Origin: Ferrithrix thermotolerans DSM 19514
GTDB lineage: Bacteria > Actinomycetota > Acidimicrobiia > Acidimicrobiales > Ilumatobacteraceae
Length of the DNA stretch: 32,178 nucleotides
Reading direction: 5' to 3'
NCBI GenBank assembly: GCA_945861325.1
Contig: CAMATY010000011.1
Coordinates: 1 to 32,178 of the forward strand
The notes under the pieces are model-generated. The model worked only from the letters and a program-made list of their open reading frames with translations. It made no database searches and was not told where the DNA came from. Below are positions 3,815 through 26,395 of this stretch, in pieces. Both the position numbers and the translations under genes were made by a program. Numbering within the stretch: position 1 is the stretch's first letter; every line of letters begins with the position of its first letter.

Positions 3815-4729
3815 ATGAAAAAATATTCTGATTTCGAACTTGGTCGTGTCGGCATTTGGACTTCAGCGCTAGATCTGCAGCCGATGTCAAAATCAAAAGA
3901 AGCAGCGATAGAACTCGAAGAACTTGGATTTAGATGCATCTGGGTTCCTGAGGCTGTGAATCGTGAGCCGTTTGCCTCATGTGGAGTTTTGCTTGAGGCG
4001 ACGAAAAAAATGACATTGGCTACCGGCATCGCGTCGATGTATGCAAGAAGTGCTGCAACGATGAATGCTGGATGGAGGACTCTGACAGAAGCATTCGGCC
4101 ACAGATTTCTCCTTGGAATCGGCGCAAGCCATCAGCACCTCGTTGAAAAAGTTCACAAGACTAGTTACGAAAAACCGTATTCGGCAATGGTCGAATATTT
4201 AAAGGCGATGGATAGCGGGCTATTTTTTGCTGCTGCGCCGACGGTTGCGCCTCGCAGGGTTTTGGCGGCACTAGGTCCAAAGATGCTGAAACTTTCTGCA
4301 GAAATGGGAATAGGTGCCCATCCATATTTTGTGCCGCTTGAACACACAAGTTCTGCGCGAAAAATTCTTGGTGACGATGCGTTACTCGCACCAGAGATTG
4401 CAGTCGTGTTTGACACGAATCCAGAGACTGCTCGAGCGACTGCGAGAAAATTTATGTTGACGTATACGCGACTTCCTAACTATGCGAATAATTTAATTCG
4501 CTTGGGCTGGAAACAAGATCAAATAGTCGGCCCAGACAAAATGCCGTGCGATGCGCTAGTTGACGCAATCGTCGCATGGGGAACTCTTGACACAATCACG
4601 GCTCGAATTAAAGCCCATCTTGACGCTGGGGCTTCTCATGTTTCAGTGCAAGTAATTGACGCCGATCCACTCGCGTTGCCAATGCGTCAGTGGCGCGAAC
4701 TGGCCACGACACTAGCTAATTTTGGCTAG
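3815..4729 (+). CDS. LLM-class F420-dependent oxidoreductase
   Basis: 304 aa luciferase-like monooxygenase fold sequence: ELEELGFRCIWVPEAV, ATGIASMYARSAATMNAGWRTLTEAFGHRFLLGIGASH. Confidence 0.85.
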   Translation: MKKYSDFELGRVGIWTSALDLQPMSKSKEAAIELEELGFRCIWVPEAVNREPFASCGVLLEATKKMTLATGIASMYARSAATMNAGWRTLTEAFGHRFLLGIGASHQHLVEKVHKTSYEKPYSAMVEYLKAMDSGLFFAAAPTVAPRRVLAALGPKMLKLSAEMGIGAHPYFVPLEHTSSARKILGDDALLAPEIAVVFDTNPETARATARKFMLTYTRLPNYANNLIRLGWKQDQIVGPDKMPCDALVDAIVAWGTLDTITARIKAHLDAGASHVSVQVIDADPLALPMRQWRELATTLANFG

Positions 4730-8145: not shown

Positions 8146-9093
8146 CTATTCGTTTGTTGGTGTTGCGTTATCAGATGCGAGTTTGTCAACTTCGCCGATG
8201 AGTGAGGCGAGCCGGTCGGGTTGCTGCATTGGGCCAAAGTGTCCAACATCTGACCATTGGATGAACTTCGCGTTCTGAATCTCTTTGGCGATTAATTCGG
8301 ACCATGCAGAAGGTTGGTTCGGCGCAACAGCGCCGGCGACGACCCAAGTCGGAACTTGGAGCAGGTGAAGTTGATCCCAAGTTTGATGTGCGGCTCCAGT
8401 TTCGTATGTTCGTGCTTCATGCTCGGGAAGGCATTTGAGCACTACTGAACGCTGTTTAGTTTTTGTATCCTCGATGTCATTAAATCCGTACTCGACATAG
8501 GCACGAAGAGATTCGTTTTTGAACACGTTCATTGGCGGTTTTGAAGAATAATTTGCTAACGCTTCTTCTCGCGAAGCAAATGTTGTGCGACGGCGACGAG
8601 CACCTTCGACGAGTGGGCTTGGCACATGCAAATCTTTGGCTGCCTGACGAAATGTGGCTGGAAAAATAATAGGTTCATAAATAATCAGCGCTTTAAATAG
8701 TTCGGGTGCTATCAGCGCGGCCATAATTAAGGCCGCACCACCCATTGAATGCCCAACAGCGATTATTCGGCCGTGATCGCGAAGCGAACTGGCAACCGCA
8801 AGTGCGTCGTCACAATAGCCTTGCCACTCGACCTGCCAATCTGAGTCCAACTTTGAGTCGCCGAAGCCTCGATAGTCAAATGATGTGCAGTCGAATTTGT
8901 TTTTTAGAGAATTAACAACTGGATCAAAACATCGACCATGAAATCCTGTGGCATGAGACAATAAAACCTGGCGGTTGGCGCTGGACTTTGATGGGTAGCT
9001 ATAGACGCTGAGTTGTATCGAGTCCGAAGATTCGATGAAGGTTCGCTTCGGCATTTCAATATTCATAGTCTTGCATTGTGTCAGGTAGTTCAA
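8146..9093 (-). CDS. Alpha/beta hydrolase
   Basis: 315 aa. Nucleophile elbow AVGHSMGGAA, VLLSHATGFHGRCFDPV, C-terminal DVGHFGPMQQPDRLA. The real start may be an internal Met (MNIEMPKRTF). Confidence 0.9.
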   Translation of the reverse strand: MNYLTQCKTMNIEMPKRTFIESSDSIQLSVYSYPSKSSANRQVLLSHATGFHGRCFDPVVNSLKNKFDCTSFDYRGFGDSKLDSDWQVEWQGYCDDALAVASSLRDHGRIIAVGHSMGGAALIMAALIAPELFKALIIYEPIIFPATFRQAAKDLHVPSPLVEGARRRRTTFASREEALANYSSKPPMNVFKNESLRAYVEYGFNDIEDTKTKQRSVVLKCLPEHEARTYETGAAHQTWDQLHLLQVPTWVVAGAVAPNQPSAWSELIAKEIQNAKFIQWSDVGHFGPMQQPDRLASLIGEVDKLASDNATPTNE

Positions 9094-9106
9094 CTATGAT
9101 GTGCCA

Positions 9107-9373: not shown

Positions 9374-9414
9374 GTTCATCGCGGCGTTGCCCGTTATAGA
9401 TGTTGCATTGAACT

Positions 9415-9430
9415 GGTAGTACGAACTACC
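9415..9430 (+). promoter_or_regulatory. Hairpin-forming element just upstream of the acyl-CoA synthetase start; similar sequence upstream of the small H1-like gene
   Basis: GGTAGT-acga-ACTACC inverted repeat ending 2 nt before GTG 9433 and 8 nt before ATG 9439. The paralogous segment at 9084-9097 reads ggtagttcaactat. Confidence 0.5.
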
Positions 9431-9438
9431 GTGTGTCA

Positions 9439-11235
9439 ATGGCCACAAAATCAAAAAAAACACGCAAGAAAACATCAAAGAACCGCGCATCTAAAAAAGT
9501 AGCGAAGAAGACAGCCAAAAAATCCGCCAAGAAGACGGCCAAAAAGTCTGTCAAAAAAACTGTTAAAAAATCCGCGAAGAAGACTGCCAAAAAGACTGTA
9601 AAGAAGACAGCTATAAAATCTGCCAAGAAGAAAGTCGCTAGTAAAAAAGTAGTTCGTCCGCGAAACCCGTTTTTGGCGATCAAAGATATTGGTGGGATCG
9701 TCCGATACCACGCAAAACAACAGCCAGATGCGTTGTCACTTGTGCTGGGTGAGCGCACTCTTACATGGGCGCAATTGCTTTCGCGCTCGGCACAAGTTGC
9801 ACAGGGTTTAAAGCGAGCCGGAGTAAAAGCCCAGGATCGTGTTGCGTTTTTAGACAAAAATGGTATTGAGCATTTCGAAGTTTTCTACGGATGTGCGTTA
9901 CTCAACGCAGTCAGTGTTGATATCAACTGGCGACTAGCCGCGCCAGAAGTTTTATTTATTGTCAACGACTCGCGGGCCGAAGTGCTAATCGTCGGCCAGG
10001 AGTTTGTGCCAGTGCTTGATGCAATCATTGGCGAACTGACTCAGGTCAAAACAATCATTGTGATTGGTGGACACTCGAACCACGACGATTATGAGCGATG
10101 GGTCAATGCGCAATCAGCGACCGATCCAAAAGCGTCAACTAAGAGCAGCGATGTTGCGTTTCAGTTGTATTCAAGTGGCACCACTGGTCGGCCAAAAGGT
10201 GTGATGTTGACTAATGATAATTTTTTCGCACTTCTTCCTGCTGCACAAAAAATTTGGCACATGTCTGAGACAACGATAAATCTTGTGGCGATGCCATTGT
10301 TTCATATTGGTGGTGGTGGTTGGGCAACCGCAGGACAATATTGTGGCGCGCGCTCAATAATCATGCGCGATATTAATCCTGCAGAAATAGTTGCGTGGAT
10401 TGAGAAGTATCGGATCACTCACGCGTTCATGGTGCCTGCGCTATTGCAGTTTGCACTTGCAATGCCAAATATCGGCACAACAGATTTCTCGAGCCTTGAA
10501 CTAATTGCGTATGGCGCATCACCGATTTCTGAATCAGTCCTTGAAGGTGCGATCAACGCATTTAAGTGTCCGTTTATGCAGGTCTATGGGTTGACAGAAA
10601 CGACGGGAGTAGTGACGGTTCTTGGGCCAGAAGATCACGACTTGAGTTCAGCCAATAAGGGCCGCTTGCGTTCGTGCGGCAAACCATTTACGGGCATTGA
10701 GTTGCGAATCGTAGATTCGGACACGGCGAAAGATGTTCCGCTCGGAGAGGTTGGCGAAATTTGGATTCGGTCTCGCCAAGTTATGAAGGGCTATTGGAAT
10801 ATGCCTGAAGAAACTGCAAAGTCAATCGTTAATGGTCGGTGGTTCAGATCAGGTGATGCTGGATACTTCGACAAAGACGGATATGTGTACATCTTCGACC
10901 GTGTCAAAGACATGATTGTCTCGGGTGGCGAAAATGTTTACCCAGCAGAAGTCGAGAATGCGCTGATGGCTCATCCGGCGATTGCCGATGTTGCAGTTAT
11001 TGGCGTGCCTGATGAGAAGTGGGGAGAGGTGCCGATGGCACTTGTCGTGCGAAAACCGGACACGCAAGTTACCGAGAGCGAGATTCTCGCATTCGCACGT
11101 GAGCGTCTTGCTGGGTTCAAGACTCCGAAAACTGTTGGCTGGATCGATGCCCTGCCGCGTAATCCATCTGGCAAGATTCTTAAAAAAGATCTTCGTGAGC
11201 CATACTGGAAGGGTCACGCCCGTCGAGTTAACTAG
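9439..11235 (+). CDS. Long-chain acyl-CoA synthetase (AMP-binding, FadD-like) with N-terminal H1-like Lys-rich tail
   Basis: ~598 aa from ATG 9439 (GTG 9433 possible). Tail MATKSKKTRKKTSKNRASKKVAKKTAKKSAKKTAKKS...KKKVASKKVVRPR is followed in frame by IKDIGGIVRYHAKQQPDALSLVLGERTLTWAQL. AMP-binding motif YSSGTTGRPKGVMLT; VYGLTETTG; SGGENVYPAEVENAL; PRNPSGKILKKDLRE. Confidence 0.93.
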   Translation: MATKSKKTRKKTSKNRASKKVAKKTAKKSAKKTAKKSVKKTVKKSAKKTAKKTVKKTAIKSAKKKVASKKVVRPRNPFLAIKDIGGIVRYHAKQQPDALSLVLGERTLTWAQLLSRSAQVAQGLKRAGVKAQDRVAFLDKNGIEHFEVFYGCALLNAVSVDINWRLAAPEVLFIVNDSRAEVLIVGQEFVPVLDAIIGELTQVKTIIVIGGHSNHDDYERWVNAQSATDPKASTKSSDVAFQLYSSGTTGRPKGVMLTNDNFFALLPAAQKIWHMSETTINLVAMPLFHIGGGGWATAGQYCGARSIIMRDINPAEIVAWIEKYRITHAFMVPALLQFALAMPNIGTTDFSSLELIAYGASPISESVLEGAINAFKCPFMQVYGLTETTGVVTVLGPEDHDLSSANKGRLRSCGKPFTGIELRIVDSDTAKDVPLGEVGEIWIRSRQVMKGYWNMPEETAKSIVNGRWFRSGDAGYFDKDGYVYIFDRVKDMIVSGGENVYPAEVENALMAHPAIADVAVIGVPDEKWGEVPMALVVRKPDTQVTESEILAFARERLAGFKTPKTVGWIDALPRNPSGKILKKDLREPYWKGHARRVN

Positions 11236-11273: not shown

Positions 11274-12329
11274 ATGAAACTATCGATGATGATCAACTAT
11301 ATTTCTGATTTTCAAACATCAGCCAAGCAGGTTGTTGAACTTGAAAAGGTAGGTCTTGACATTGTGTGGATCGCTGAGGCATACAGTTATGACTCAATTT
11401 CGCAAGTGGGATATTTGGCTGCGGTTACCAATCGTGTACAGATCGGCACCGGGATCATCAATGTCTATTCACGAACTGCTGCATTAACTGCAATGACAGC
11501 AGCGGGTTGCGACTATGTCAGCAACGGTCGATTCATTTTGGGACTTGGCGCTTCCGGGCCACAAGTGATCGAAGGTTTTCACGGCGTGCCATACGAAAAA
11601 CCGATGCAACGAACAAAAGAATACATCGAAGTTTGTCGCGAAATTTGGAAACGCGAGAAGCCGCTTAATTATGATGGCAAGACTGTACAAATTCCGTTGC
11701 CTGCTGGTCAAGGCACTGGTTTAGGAAAGTCAATGAAGTTGATAAATCATCCGGTGCGTTCTGAGATTCCGGTGTGGTGGGCATCACTTAAAGATAAGAG
11801 CGTTGAAGCGACCGCAGAAATGGCTGATGGTTGGATGCCAATTTTCTTTTTGCCCGAGAAGTTTCAAAATGTCTGGGGTAAGTCGCTAAAAGCCGGTCAG
11901 GCAAAGCGTGATGCATCCATGAAGCCGCTTGACATATCGGCGGGGGGAATGTTGCATATTGACGAGTCGCTGACACCACAAAAACAAAATGAAATTTTAG
12001 ATTTCGCACGACCAAGTTATGCGCTGTATGTCGGTGGCATGGGCGCGCGTGGTAAAAACTTCTACAACGATATTTGTCGCGACTATGGATACGAAAAAGA
12101 GGCCGTTGAAATTCAAGATTTATATCTTGACGGCAAAAAGAAAGAAGCCGCTGCGCTGATTCCAAGTGACTGGCTGCAACTATCAAACCTCGTTGGCCCG
12201 AAGAGTTTCATCAAAGAACGTCTCGGGGCATTTAAAGAAGCTGGTGTAACTGTGTTGCAGGTAAACCCAGTTGGCCCTGACCCAGTGCGTGAAGTTGAAG
12301 TTCTCCGCGGAATTATTGACGACGTGTGA
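11274..12329 (+). CDS. LLM-class F420-dependent oxidoreductase
   Basis: 351 aa. VELEKVGLDIVWIAEAYSYDSISQVGYLAAVTNRVQIGTGIINVYSRTAALTAMTAAGCDYVSNGRFILGLGASGPQVIEGFHGVPYEKP. Confidence 0.9.
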   Translation: MKLSMMINYISDFQTSAKQVVELEKVGLDIVWIAEAYSYDSISQVGYLAAVTNRVQIGTGIINVYSRTAALTAMTAAGCDYVSNGRFILGLGASGPQVIEGFHGVPYEKPMQRTKEYIEVCREIWKREKPLNYDGKTVQIPLPAGQGTGLGKSMKLINHPVRSEIPVWWASLKDKSVEATAEMADGWMPIFFLPEKFQNVWGKSLKAGQAKRDASMKPLDISAGGMLHIDESLTPQKQNEILDFARPSYALYVGGMGARGKNFYNDICRDYGYEKEAVEIQDLYLDGKKKEAAALIPSDWLQLSNLVGPKSFIKERLGAFKEAGVTVLQVNPVGPDPVREVEVLRGIIDDV

Positions 12330-22696: not shown

Positions 22697-25600
22697 ATGG
22701 CTGATCGGTCTAACACCGAAGACTTTGGTGCTAACTCTTGGTTAGTCGAAGAGATGTACGAGAGGTATTGCGACGAACCTGAAAGTTTGTCGCCAGCATG
22801 GCTAGATTTCTTTAGTGACTACAAGCCAGTCGGATCACCAAAAACTGATCCGACTGGCGAGTTAGTTCGGCTAGTTACTGAAAATTTCGAAATTGAGTCT
22901 CAAGCAGGCGTGAAGTCGGCTGATAAAACAGTAGAGAATGTGTCTCAGGTTAAGCAAAGCGTTGCAACTTCGAATCCAGCAGTTGCGCAAAAGCCTGATA
23001 CTAAGTTGCAGGCAATTCAAACGCCACTTGAAATAGTTGCGCCAGAACCTTTGCGCGGAGTCTCGGCGGTTATTGCAGCGAATATGCAATCAAGTCTTGA
23101 AGTGCCAACTGCGACGAGTGTGCGCCAAGTACCAGCGAAACTTCTTGAAGTTAATCGAAAAGTGATCAATGGTTATCGCGGTCGCAGTGGCGAAAGCAAA
23201 GTCAGTTTTACGCACTTGATTGGCTATGCAATAGTTCGCGCAATCGCAGATTCGACTCCGAGCATGAAGCATGTGTTTTCGGTTGATGATCAAGGCAAAC
23301 CACAAATTCAAAAATTTAATCACGTGAATATGGGTTTGGCGGTTGACGTCGACAAAGGTAACGGGCTACGAAGTCTTGTTGTTCCGGTTTTACGTAATGC
23401 CGACACTCTTGATTTCTTCGGATTTCTGCTTGCATATGAAGACATCATTCGTAAAGTAAGGGCGAACAAACTGAGTCTTGAAGATTTCAAAGGCGCAAAC
23501 ATCAGCCTGACAAATCCCGGCACAATCGGAACTCAACAATCTGTACCTCGTTTAATGGTCGGGCAAGGTGTCATCGTCGGTGTTGGGTCAATTGACTATC
23601 CGGCAGAATTTCAAGGCAGCGATCAGCGAACACTTGGTCGACTCGGTGTTTCAAAAGTTGTGACGATTACGAGCACATATGACCACCGAATTATTCAAGG
23701 TGCTGAGAGTGGACGATTCTTGAAATATGTTCATGAACTGTTGATTGGCGAGCATAATTTTTATGCTGATGTATTCAGTAGTTTGGGCGTTCCATATCAG
23801 GCTGTGCAATGGCGCGAAGACTCAAATTCACTTGACAGCGAAGATGCATTATTAGAAAAACAAATGCAAATCGCAACTCTGATTCGAGTACATCGTGTTC
23901 GTGGTCATTTGATCGCTGATCTTGATCCATTGCATTGGCGCGCACCCGAAATGCCACGTGAACTTGACCCGGCAACTTATGGTCTGACGCTTTGGGATTT
24001 GGATCGTGAATTTTTGACAGGAGGCGTCGGCGGAGTAAGTCGTTCAACGCTGGGTGAATTATTGGGCGTGTTGCGCGATGCTTACTGTCGAACTATTGGT
24101 GTTGAGTACATGCATATTCACTCGACCGAAGAACAGCGTTGGATTCAAGAGCGATTTGAAGGTCATGGAGTAGGCGAACACGTTGTTGATCAACATCGCG
24201 TGCTTGAACGCCTTAATGCAGCCGAAGCATTTGAGCGGTTTCTAGCCACAAAGTATGTAGGCACCAAACGATTTGGACTTGAAGGTGCAGAATCACTGAT
24301 CCCGATGCTTGATGTGATTCTTTCATCATCGGCAGATAGCAAAATGCATTCGGCGGTGATTGGTGCTATGCATCGTGGTCGTCTGAACGTGTTGGCAAAC
24401 ATCATGGGCAAGAACCTAGAAGAAATCTTTGAAGAATTTGAAGATTATATTGACCCATCTTCGGTACAAGGTTCTGGTGACGTCAAATATCACCTTGGAA
24501 GCGTCGGGGTTTTTTCTTCACCAAAGGGTGGTTTGCTACCTATTGAGTTGTCCGCTAATCCGAGTCATCTAGAAACAGTTGGGCCAGTGGTATTAGGGAT
24601 GGTTCGATCGGCGCAAGACAGGATTGAGCCGCCTCTCTCATTTAGCGTCTTGCCACTTTTGTTGCACGGTGACGCAGCATTTGCCGGACAGGGTGTCGTC
24701 GCCGAGGCGTTTGCAATGAGCGATACAAGTGGATATCGCGTTGGTGGAAGTGTACATATTATCGTTAACAATCAAATTGGTTTTACTACGTCACCGCAGT
24801 ATGCGCGTTCTTCAAAGTATCCAAGTGATGTTGCCAAGACGGTTCAGGCGCCGATCTTTCATGTCAACGGTGATGACCCTGAAGCATGCGTGCGAGTTGC
24901 ACAACTCGCGTTTGAATATCGTCAAGAGTTTCACAAAGATGTCGTTATTGACATGATTTGTTACCGCCGATTTGGGCACAACGAAGGTGATGATCCGAGT
25001 TACACACAGCCTTTGATGTACAAAGCAATCGCCGAACGTCGAAGTGTGCGCAAACTTTATGTTGAGACTCTCGTAAAACGTGGAGATATCACGCTCGATG
25101 AGGCGGAGCAAGCACTCTCTGACTATCAAGGCAAATTGCAAGGAGCGTTGGATGCTGCCCGTGCCGCTAAACCGGCCCCGATAAAAGTACCGCCGCCGCC
25201 GAAGCCTATTGGTGTGGTTCCACACGTTGAGACTGGAGTTGAGCGTTCAACTCTGGATGGAATTTTTAATCACTTGTCGGCGTACCCGCCAGACTTTACT
25301 GCTCATCCAAAACTTGTGAGACAGTTTGCGCTTCGTGCTGAACTTTACAATTCGCAACAAGATGTTGATTGGGCGACTGCTGAAGCTCTGGCTTTTGGAT
25401 CACTTGTGATTGAGGGGACACCAGTGCGACTCATGGGTGAAGACGCACGTCGCGGCACTTTTAGTCAACGCCATTCAACGCTGGTTGATTACAACAATGA
25501 ACAGCGTTGGGTCCCAATCAATACATTGCCGAACGGTAAGGCGCGATTTTGGGTTTATGACTCTTTGCTTTCTGAATACGCGGCTCTCGGATTTGAATAT

Positions 25601-26395
25601 GGATATGCGCAGTCAAACGCTGATGCATTGGTGATGTGGGAGGCGCAGTTTGGAGACTTCGTGAACGGCGCGCAGATCGTGATCGACCAATACATTGTCG
25701 CAGCCGAAGATAAATGGGGACAGCAAAATGGTTTAGTTATGTTGCTTCCGCACGGATATGAGGGGCAAGGACCTGAACATTCTTCAGCACGACTTGAGCG
25801 ATTTTTGCAAATGTGTGCAGAAGACAACATTCAAGTTTGTTATCCGACAACTGCTGCCCAATATTTTCATATGTTGCGCCGTCAAGTACGCCGTGATTTC
25901 CGAAAGCCACTCGTCGTGATGACTCCAAAGCAACCGCTCAGAATGAAAGAGAGTAGGTCGTTGGTCAGCGAACTTACTTCGGGAAGCTTTCAAGAGATTC
26001 TTGATGATCCCACAGTTAGTGATAGAGAACGTATCACTCGAGTTGTTTTATGCACTGGGAAAGTCGCCTGGGACATAATGGGTGAGCGCAACAAGCGAAA
26101 TGCATTTGTTGCAGTGGTTCGTATTGAGCAGTTGTATCCGTTTCCAATTGCAGGTCTAAACGAAATACTCTCGCGCTATCCGAATGCAAAACAAGTTGTG
26201 TGGGTGCAAGAAGAGCCAGAGAATATGGGTGCATGGCGCTTCGTTGATGACATTGTTTGGTGCATTAAGAGCCAAGGCTTTGAGTGGCGTCATGTCGCCC
26301 GCTTTGAATCAGGAAGTCCTGCGACCGGATCAAAGACGATACATGACCAAGAATTAGCCAGCCTGCTTGAAAAAACCTTTGCCGACTGGCAATAA
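22697..26395 (+). CDS. kgd: Multifunctional 2-oxoglutarate decarboxylase/dehydrogenase (E1 with fused E2o succinyltransferase domain)
   Basis: 1232 aa. E1 N-terminal helix NSWLVEEMYERYCDEPESLSPAWLDFFSDY; E2-like VPAKLLEVNRKVINGY...VSFTHLIGYAIVRAI...TNPGTIGTQQSVPRLM...STYDHRIIQGAESG; E1 body GLEGAESLIPMLD, HRGRLNVLANIMGK, RRFGHNEGDDPSYTQPLMY, LLPHGYEGQGPEHSSARLER. Confidence 0.97.
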   Translation: MADRSNTEDFGANSWLVEEMYERYCDEPESLSPAWLDFFSDYKPVGSPKTDPTGELVRLVTENFEIESQAGVKSADKTVENVSQVKQSVATSNPAVAQKPDTKLQAIQTPLEIVAPEPLRGVSAVIAANMQSSLEVPTATSVRQVPAKLLEVNRKVINGYRGRSGESKVSFTHLIGYAIVRAIADSTPSMKHVFSVDDQGKPQIQKFNHVNMGLAVDVDKGNGLRSLVVPVLRNADTLDFFGFLLAYEDIIRKVRANKLSLEDFKGANISLTNPGTIGTQQSVPRLMVGQGVIVGVGSIDYPAEFQGSDQRTLGRLGVSKVVTITSTYDHRIIQGAESGRFLKYVHELLIGEHNFYADVFSSLGVPYQAVQWREDSNSLDSEDALLEKQMQIATLIRVHRVRGHLIADLDPLHWRAPEMPRELDPATYGLTLWDLDREFLTGGVGGVSRSTLGELLGVLRDAYCRTIGVEYMHIHSTEEQRWIQERFEGHGVGEHVVDQHRVLERLNAAEAFERFLATKYVGTKRFGLEGAESLIPMLDVILSSSADSKMHSAVIGAMHRGRLNVLANIMGKNLEEIFEEFEDYIDPSSVQGSGDVKYHLGSVGVFSSPKGGLLPIELSANPSHLETVGPVVLGMVRSAQDRIEPPLSFSVLPLLLHGDAAFAGQGVVAEAFAMSDTSGYRVGGSVHIIVNNQIGFTTSPQYARSSKYPSDVAKTVQAPIFHVNGDDPEACVRVAQLAFEYRQEFHKDVVIDMICYRRFGHNEGDDPSYTQPLMYKAIAERRSVRKLYVETLVKRGDITLDEAEQALSDYQGKLQGALDAARAAKPAPIKVPPPPKPIGVVPHVETGVERSTLDGIFNHLSAYPPDFTAHPKLVRQFALRAELYNSQQDVDWATAEALAFGSLVIEGTPVRLMGEDARRGTFSQRHSTLVDYNNEQRWVPINTLPNGKARFWVYDSLLSEYAALGFEYGYAQSNADALVMWEAQFGDFVNGAQIVIDQYIVAAEDKWGQQNGLVMLLPHGYEGQGPEHSSARLERFLQMCAEDNIQVCYPTTAAQYFHMLRRQVRRDFRKPLVVMTPKQPLRMKESRSLVSELTSGSFQEILDDPTVSDRERITRVVLCTGKVAWDIMGERNKRNAFVAVVRIEQLYPFPIAGLNEILSRYPNAKQVVWVQEEPENMGAWRFVDDIVWCIKSQGFEWRHVARFESGSPATGSKTIHDQELASLLEKTFADWQ
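22825..22858 (+). repeat. Perfect 13-bp inverted repeat inside kgd coding sequence
   Basis: GCCAGTCGGATCA (22825-22837) - CCAAAAAC loop - TGATCCGACTGGC (22846-22858), no mismatch. Confidence 0.95.

Follow-up and report, generated by a model that had tools for sequence, protein, structure and literature searches.

A histone H1-like, lysine-rich tail on an acyl-CoA synthetase of Ferrithrix and its relatives: a possible electrostatic tether

The 32,178-nt contig CAMATY010000011.1 of Ferrithrix thermotolerans DSM 19514 (assembly GCA_945861325.1; the whole stretch is called here the window) carries a gene whose product joins a complete acyl-CoA synthetase (FadD) to an N-terminal, lysine-rich tail of the histone H1 type. 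The tail is conserved in two genera, and its positive charge is maintained by selection. We predict tentatively, with somewhat less than even confidence, that FadD with this lineage-specific, disordered cationic tail is held by non-specific electrostatic attraction on a polyanion, the nucleoid being the likeliest. Among bacteria, H1-like tails have been known from nucleoid proteins and a handful of granule proteins; here one is found on an unexpected enzyme. A literature search, whose coverage excluded most subscription papers, turned up no description of an acyl-CoA synthetase with a tail of this kind.

The Tail and Its Enzyme

A single open frame runs from 9433 to 11235 without a stop inside, and is coding from the ATG at 9439 to the stop at 11235. 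The original prediction, made from the letters of the DNA, was of an in-frame lysine-rich tail on a complete acyl-CoA synthetase, and both parts are there: the string KKTAKKSAKKTAKKSVKKTVKKSAKKTAKKTVKKTAIKSAKKK is present, and the same frame continues into the enzyme. Residues 90-579 are covered by the Pfam domains AMP-binding (2.7e-86, 290 bits) and AMP-binding_C (1.1e-22, 81 bits), both over the cut-off, and the NCBIfam model for long-chain-fatty-acid-CoA ligase (NF004837) matches FadD with 563.8 bits against a cut-off of 476. Relatives of the core among solved structures (PDB) are FadD5, FadD13 and feruloyl-CoA synthetase. Across 35 homologs, all the expected motif residues are invariant: Y244, G247, T248, T249, G250, K253 and G254 of the A3 P-loop, T386 and E387 of YGLTE, G472 and D473 of GD, R488, K490 and D491 of RxKD, and the A10 lysine, K579. 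By domains and catalytic motifs, FadD would thus be assigned to the FadD/long-chain acyl-CoA synthetases of the ANL superfamily.

The tail consists mostly of lysine, with alanine, threonine, serine and valine, and hydrophobic or aromatic residues are nearly absent from it. The first 80 residues of FadD are 40% lysine (45% lysine plus arginine), contain no aspartate or glutamate and have a net charge of +36, whereas the core of 518 residues is 5% lysine with a net charge of -5. This bias of the tail relative to the core is far beyond chance. In the AlphaFold model, the predicted local distance difference test (pLDDT) is 30-42 in the tail and below 50 at every one of residues 1-73, while most of the core is modelled well; the tail is thus disordered in prediction. 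Being rich in lysine, spaced by Ala/Thr/Ser/Val/Pro, free of acidic residues and disordered as modelled, it has the features of an H1-like cationic tail of the HupB/AlgP type.

The repeat units of the tail had been read as using mixed synonymous codons, and they do: the 32 lysines are encoded by 18 AAA and 14 AAG, and Tandem Repeats Finder (TRF) finds matches of only 66-80% at periods of 12, 24 and 48. Recent slippage as the origin of the tail is ruled out, as the codons vary from unit to unit.

Distribution and Origin

Relatives of the gene fall into three firm clades. In clade A, which is the window's genus, and clade B, a second genus of the same family, every ortholog with a sequenced 5'-end has the tail in frame, as one would look for if the tail were part of the protein. 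Clade A comprises 15 complete tails, 2 truncated at contig edges and 1 with an apparent frameshift; clade B has 6 complete tails and 3 that are cut or masked by Ns. Genes whose 5'-end lies at a contig edge or under Ns (L072 and L075) were not counted as untailed. Tail loss within either clade was never seen. FadD of the sister clade C and of all outgroups is without a tail, and distant FadD paralogs that align into the tail region (L144-L156) also lack a lysine-rich tail. The two tailed genera are related, belong to the Ilumatobacteraceae-type (acIV) actinobacteria and are known mainly from freshwater.

The order of genes, hydrolase, FadD, F420-dependent oxidoreductase (in most loci also MFS and NMO), is identical in clades A, B and the untailed C, and the FadD genes of the three are therefore orthologs at one place. 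An assembly error, or the joining of two genes, is ruled out as the source of the tail, since independent assemblies carry it in the same frame in both tailed clades.

The tree does not resolve the order among the three clades. In AU tests, the groupings A+B (p 0.507) and A+C (p 0.405) both escape rejection; B+C lacks support (84/34). One gain followed by a loss, one gain in the ancestor of A+B, or two gains are hence all compatible with the tree.

Selection on the Tail

The tail was suspected to be an old repeat maintained for its protein composition, and comparison with a near relative (L038) agrees with this. All 32 lysines of the window's tail are kept in L038; seven of their codons differ, each by a synonymous change between AAA and AAG, with no replacement. 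Among the remaining 48 codons, 12 changes are synonymous and 9 replace the amino acid. By our own calculation, seven synonymous changes out of seven at lysine codons have a chance of about 1e-5, under a model of free mutation at lysine codons in which transitions and transversions have a rate ratio of 3 and about 1/5 of the changes would be synonymous.

The 21 tails compared are 50-88 residues long, have charges of +25 to +44 and contain four acidic residues in total. Repeat number and spacer residues vary quickly between orthologs, and lysine replacements do appear in more distant pairs. Because near relatives retain all the lysines while the spacer residues drift, the sequences indicate that the tail turns over but that its positive charge stays and is under selection.

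The Start of Translation

Upstream of the tail lie -35- and -10-like elements (Table 1). In all 15 complete clade A orthologs, a TANNNT box is located exactly 6 nt upstream of the tail ATG. In clade B a similar box, read by eye from the sequence, is 8 nt upstream of the tail ATG, and most of the untailed genes of clade C have one 6-7 nt upstream of their ATG (the 7-nt cases by eye). A -10 box this close to the ATG is the geometry of leaderless transcripts, which are common in Actinobacteria. That complete tails open at an ATG directly behind such a box supports a leaderless start there, and FadD messages may well be leaderless.

The likely start is thus ATG 9439; GTG 9433, earlier taken as the start, is merely the mechanical first start codon of the open reading frame, so that the tail itself stands and its beginning moves to 9439. 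Translation from an internal TTG was considered and rejected: the TTG and other internal starts are missing in L040, L041, L048, L054, L073 and L074, internal start codons are not conserved across orthologs, and none of the internal candidates in the orthologs examined is preceded by a -10 box. Of the three circumstances in which the tail could have been spurious (a downstream TTG start, no tailed relative, an assembly error), none was found.

A Stand-Alone H1-Like Gene

A small gene for a stand-alone H1-like protein lies in the window between the genes for the hydrolase and FadD. The gene is confined to the window's subclade (L038-L042 and L044). Its promoter resembles that of FadD: the pattern TTGCATTG-N14-ACTA occurs exactly twice in the 1.7-Mb genome, in the FadD promoter and in the small-gene promoter (9071). 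Compared with FadD promoters from species in which the small gene is absent (L043, L047, L051), the small-gene promoter is identical at 29/40 positions, a level matched by 1 of 5000 random 40-mers. The small gene probably arose when the promoter and tail of FadD were copied in a partial tandem duplication. Similarity between the middle part of the small protein and the start of the FadD core was not above that of shuffled controls, and the duplication is accordingly claimed for promoter and tail only.

The small protein ends in a segment whose helical hydrophobic moment clearly exceeds that of shuffled sequences in L040-L044 and does so weakly in the copy carried by the window.

Similar Tails Elsewhere in the Lineage

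A search for the KKxxKK pattern in the window's own genome also finds a WYL-type regulator (N-terminal), GyrA (N-terminal), TatB (C-terminal), and a small basic protein together with a tiny basic open reading frame immediately downstream of HU. In relatives within the genus, the pattern is in thiol peroxidase (Tpx; N-terminal) and endonuclease III (Nth; C-terminal). The FadD tail is thus one instance of a habit, in this lineage, of tailing many proteins. Both this habit and the stand-alone gene are additional to the original prediction.

The individual cases are as follows. GyrA of the window's own genome (L143, G000:C138) has an N-terminal lysine-rich tail of about 50-60 residues. The WYL-type regulators with an N-terminal tail (L140, L161, L164, L167, L172, L176) were recognized from their sequence, with no NCBIfam match. 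Endonuclease III has a short C-terminal tail (L162, L165, L166), and TatB has a C-terminal one (L139, L178). Thiol peroxidases with an N-terminal H1-like tail are among L213-L231, e.g., L217 (G012) and L231 (G032). Topoisomerase I is probably tailed too (L174; identity from sequence only). The tiny open reading frame MAAKKRKKAKKAAKKAPAKKKRKAKKK (L142, G000:C90, minus strand) adjoins a tail-less HU gene (4227-4496) on its downstream side and resembles a detached HU tail.

The distributions are not alike. The FadD tail is found in the window's genus (g1) and in g9 and is absent from g5, whereas the Tpx tail is found in g1 and g5 and is absent from g9 and others. Tails thus come and go protein by protein. 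Such unlike distributions over many unrelated proteins, together with the fast change of repeat number and spacer residues, could mean that the lineage simply gains lysine-rich tails that are tolerated or aid solubility and persist by chance, with little specific function. We find this quite improbable, as lysines are preserved in near relatives through synonymous changes only and clades A and B have kept their tails throughout.

A conserved, charge-selected tail on a fatty-acid-activating enzyme, with another on thiol peroxidase within the genus, suggests that a whole lineage positions ordinary enzymes in this way, and the interest of the FadD tail grows as part of such a pattern. A bolder view is that the portable tail is a general address tag, with FadD and thiol peroxidase held on the nucleoid beside gyrase and endonuclease III, and with the tail spreading as a separate module in the form of the small H1-like gene. 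We regard this as doubtful; if true, it would mean a nucleoid-anchored set of enzymes.

Where the Tail May Take FadD

As an electrostatic tether, the tail would keep part of the FadD on a polyanion, which would most likely be the nucleoid, with anionic membrane and polyphosphate as alternatives. The original prediction had named DNA, RNA, polyphosphate and acidic membrane as possible anchors. The tail would fix the location of FadD and leave its chemistry untouched. In the window's subclade, promoter and tail would additionally have been copied into the separate small H1-like protein. DNA leads among the targets because DNA-acting proteins of this genus (GyrA, endonuclease III and the WYL regulator) are tailed in the same way, and because tails of this type are known to favour DNA binding in HupB, TopA, AlgP and PhaF.

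Several observations weigh against a nucleoid tether. Clade C shows that a tail is not required for the enzyme core to exist. In L044 (strain BS4) the tail seems to be frameshifted close to its start, at about 3.7-3.9 kb, which puts the ATG and the first residues in another frame; this may be a sequencing error. TatB, also tailed, is a membrane protein, so DNA may not be the sole target, and FadD13, a close structural relative, contacts anionic membranes via a positive patch (PMC8253482). The last two points make the membrane the main rival: the tail may bring FadD to cardiolipin or phosphatidylglycerol near its fatty-acid substrate, replacing or reinforcing a cationic patch of the FadD13 type. 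That a TatB of the same genome has such a tail, and that the small H1-like protein has both a tail and an amphipathic segment at its C-terminus, would fit. We consider it rather unlikely nevertheless, as the other tailed proteins of the genus are mostly DNA enzymes or soluble and the tail offers almost no hydrophobic or aromatic residues.

The tail could also bind polyphosphate, putting FadD and the other tailed proteins on polyphosphate granules. A polyphosphate kinase (PPK) domain is present in 28/29 genomes of the genus, and AlgP, with its H1-like tail, localises to such granules (PMC9239181). However, AlgP also binds DNA, and granules in these organisms are not indicated by the present data, which leaves this reading distinctly improbable.

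Finally, a lysine-rich tail fused to a core that forms acyl-AMP invites the thought, put forward in the original prediction, that the tail is an acyl acceptor, its lysines being acylated by FadD's own acyl-AMP or acyl-CoA, so that the charge is altered and lipid state is coupled to binding. HupS, a lysine-tailed HU protein, is reported to have a higher DNA affinity when deacetylated (PMC11229371). But electrostatics explains the lysine content equally well, and the same tails are on proteins without acyl chemistry; we give this idea very little credence.

With a nucleoid tether as the tentatively preferred reading, the FadD tail is a testable case of where a small bacterial cell keeps a soluble metabolic enzyme.

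Features of the Window

The features are collected in Table 1. Elsewhere in the window, 22697-26395 encodes a single-chain 2-oxoglutarate dehydrogenase in which acyltransferase, E1 and C-terminal domains are fused; such fused single-chain enzymes occur in other Actinobacteria.

Table 1. Features of the FadD locus, with positions in the window
Feature	Position	Strand	Basis
H1-like lysine-rich N-terminal tail of FadD, about 78 aa, +36, acid-free	9439..9672	+	Open reading frame, composition, AlphaFold
Acyl-CoA synthetase core (FadD, ANL superfamily), including stop codon	9673..11235	+	Pfam/NCBIfam profiles, motifs, PDB neighbours
P-loop/A3 motif YSSGTTGRPKG, residues 244-254	10168..10200	+	Alignment of 35 homologs
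Putative FadD promoter: -35-like TTGCAT (9403-9408), 18-nt spacer, -10-like TACCGT (9427-9432), 6 nt to ATG; leaderless geometry	9403..9432	+	
Stand-alone H1-like protein, 88 aa: lysine-rich N-terminus and C-terminal amphipathic segment	9107..9373	+	Pfam HC2 23.2 bits (cut-off 40), locus comparison
Putative small-gene promoter: TTGCAT (9071-9076), 18-nt spacer, TATGAT (9095-9100), 6 nt to ATG	9071..9100	+	
Alpha/beta hydrolase, divergently oriented, conserved neighbour	8146..9093	-	Pfam, locus comparison
LLM-class F420-dependent oxidoreductase (Rv3520c-like), conserved downstream neighbour	11274..12329	+	TIGR03559, 451 bits (cut-off 335); locus comparison

Comparison with Known Systems

In ANL fold, catalytic motifs and core length, FadD is like the mycobacterial FadD5 and FadD13. 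Unlike it, these two have alignments that begin only where the core does (query residues 75-81), and the membrane contact of FadD13 is a surface patch on the folded core with no tail involved (PMC8253482).

HC2 (Pfam PF07382) shares the Lys/Ala/Thr-rich composition, but the small protein is only a weak match that stays below the cut-off (23.2 vs. 40 bits), and the FadD tail gives no match. A granule enzyme offers another comparison: the acyl-CoA synthetase ACS1 is a polyhydroxyalkanoate (PHA)-granule protein (PMC5658603). A PHA-granule role is unlikely here, PhaC (PhaC_N) being present in 0/29 genomes of the genus, and the Pfam search of the proteins of the FadD locus gave no phasin domain, which sets them apart from phasins of the PhaF type.

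With AlgP and PhaF, the H1-like granule proteins of Pseudomonas, the FadD tail shares a disordered lysine-rich repeat domain, and the KPAA tails of both bind DNA (PMC9239181, PMC5658603). PhaF combines a DNA-binding tail with an amphipathic helix, and the small H1-like protein may be built likewise.

HupB/HupS and TopA, like FadD, have Lys/Ala-rich repeats of the H1 type. The tail of HupB is required for nucleoid association (PMC5676037), and the lysine repeats of actinobacterial TopA are reported to be needed for processivity (PMC7398561). Pfam finds no HU (Bac_DNA_binding) domain in FadD or the small H1-like protein, HU genes being elsewhere in the genome. In HupB/HupS and TopA the tails are C-terminal and on DNA-binding proteins, whereas that of FadD is N-terminal and on a metabolic enzyme without an HU domain.
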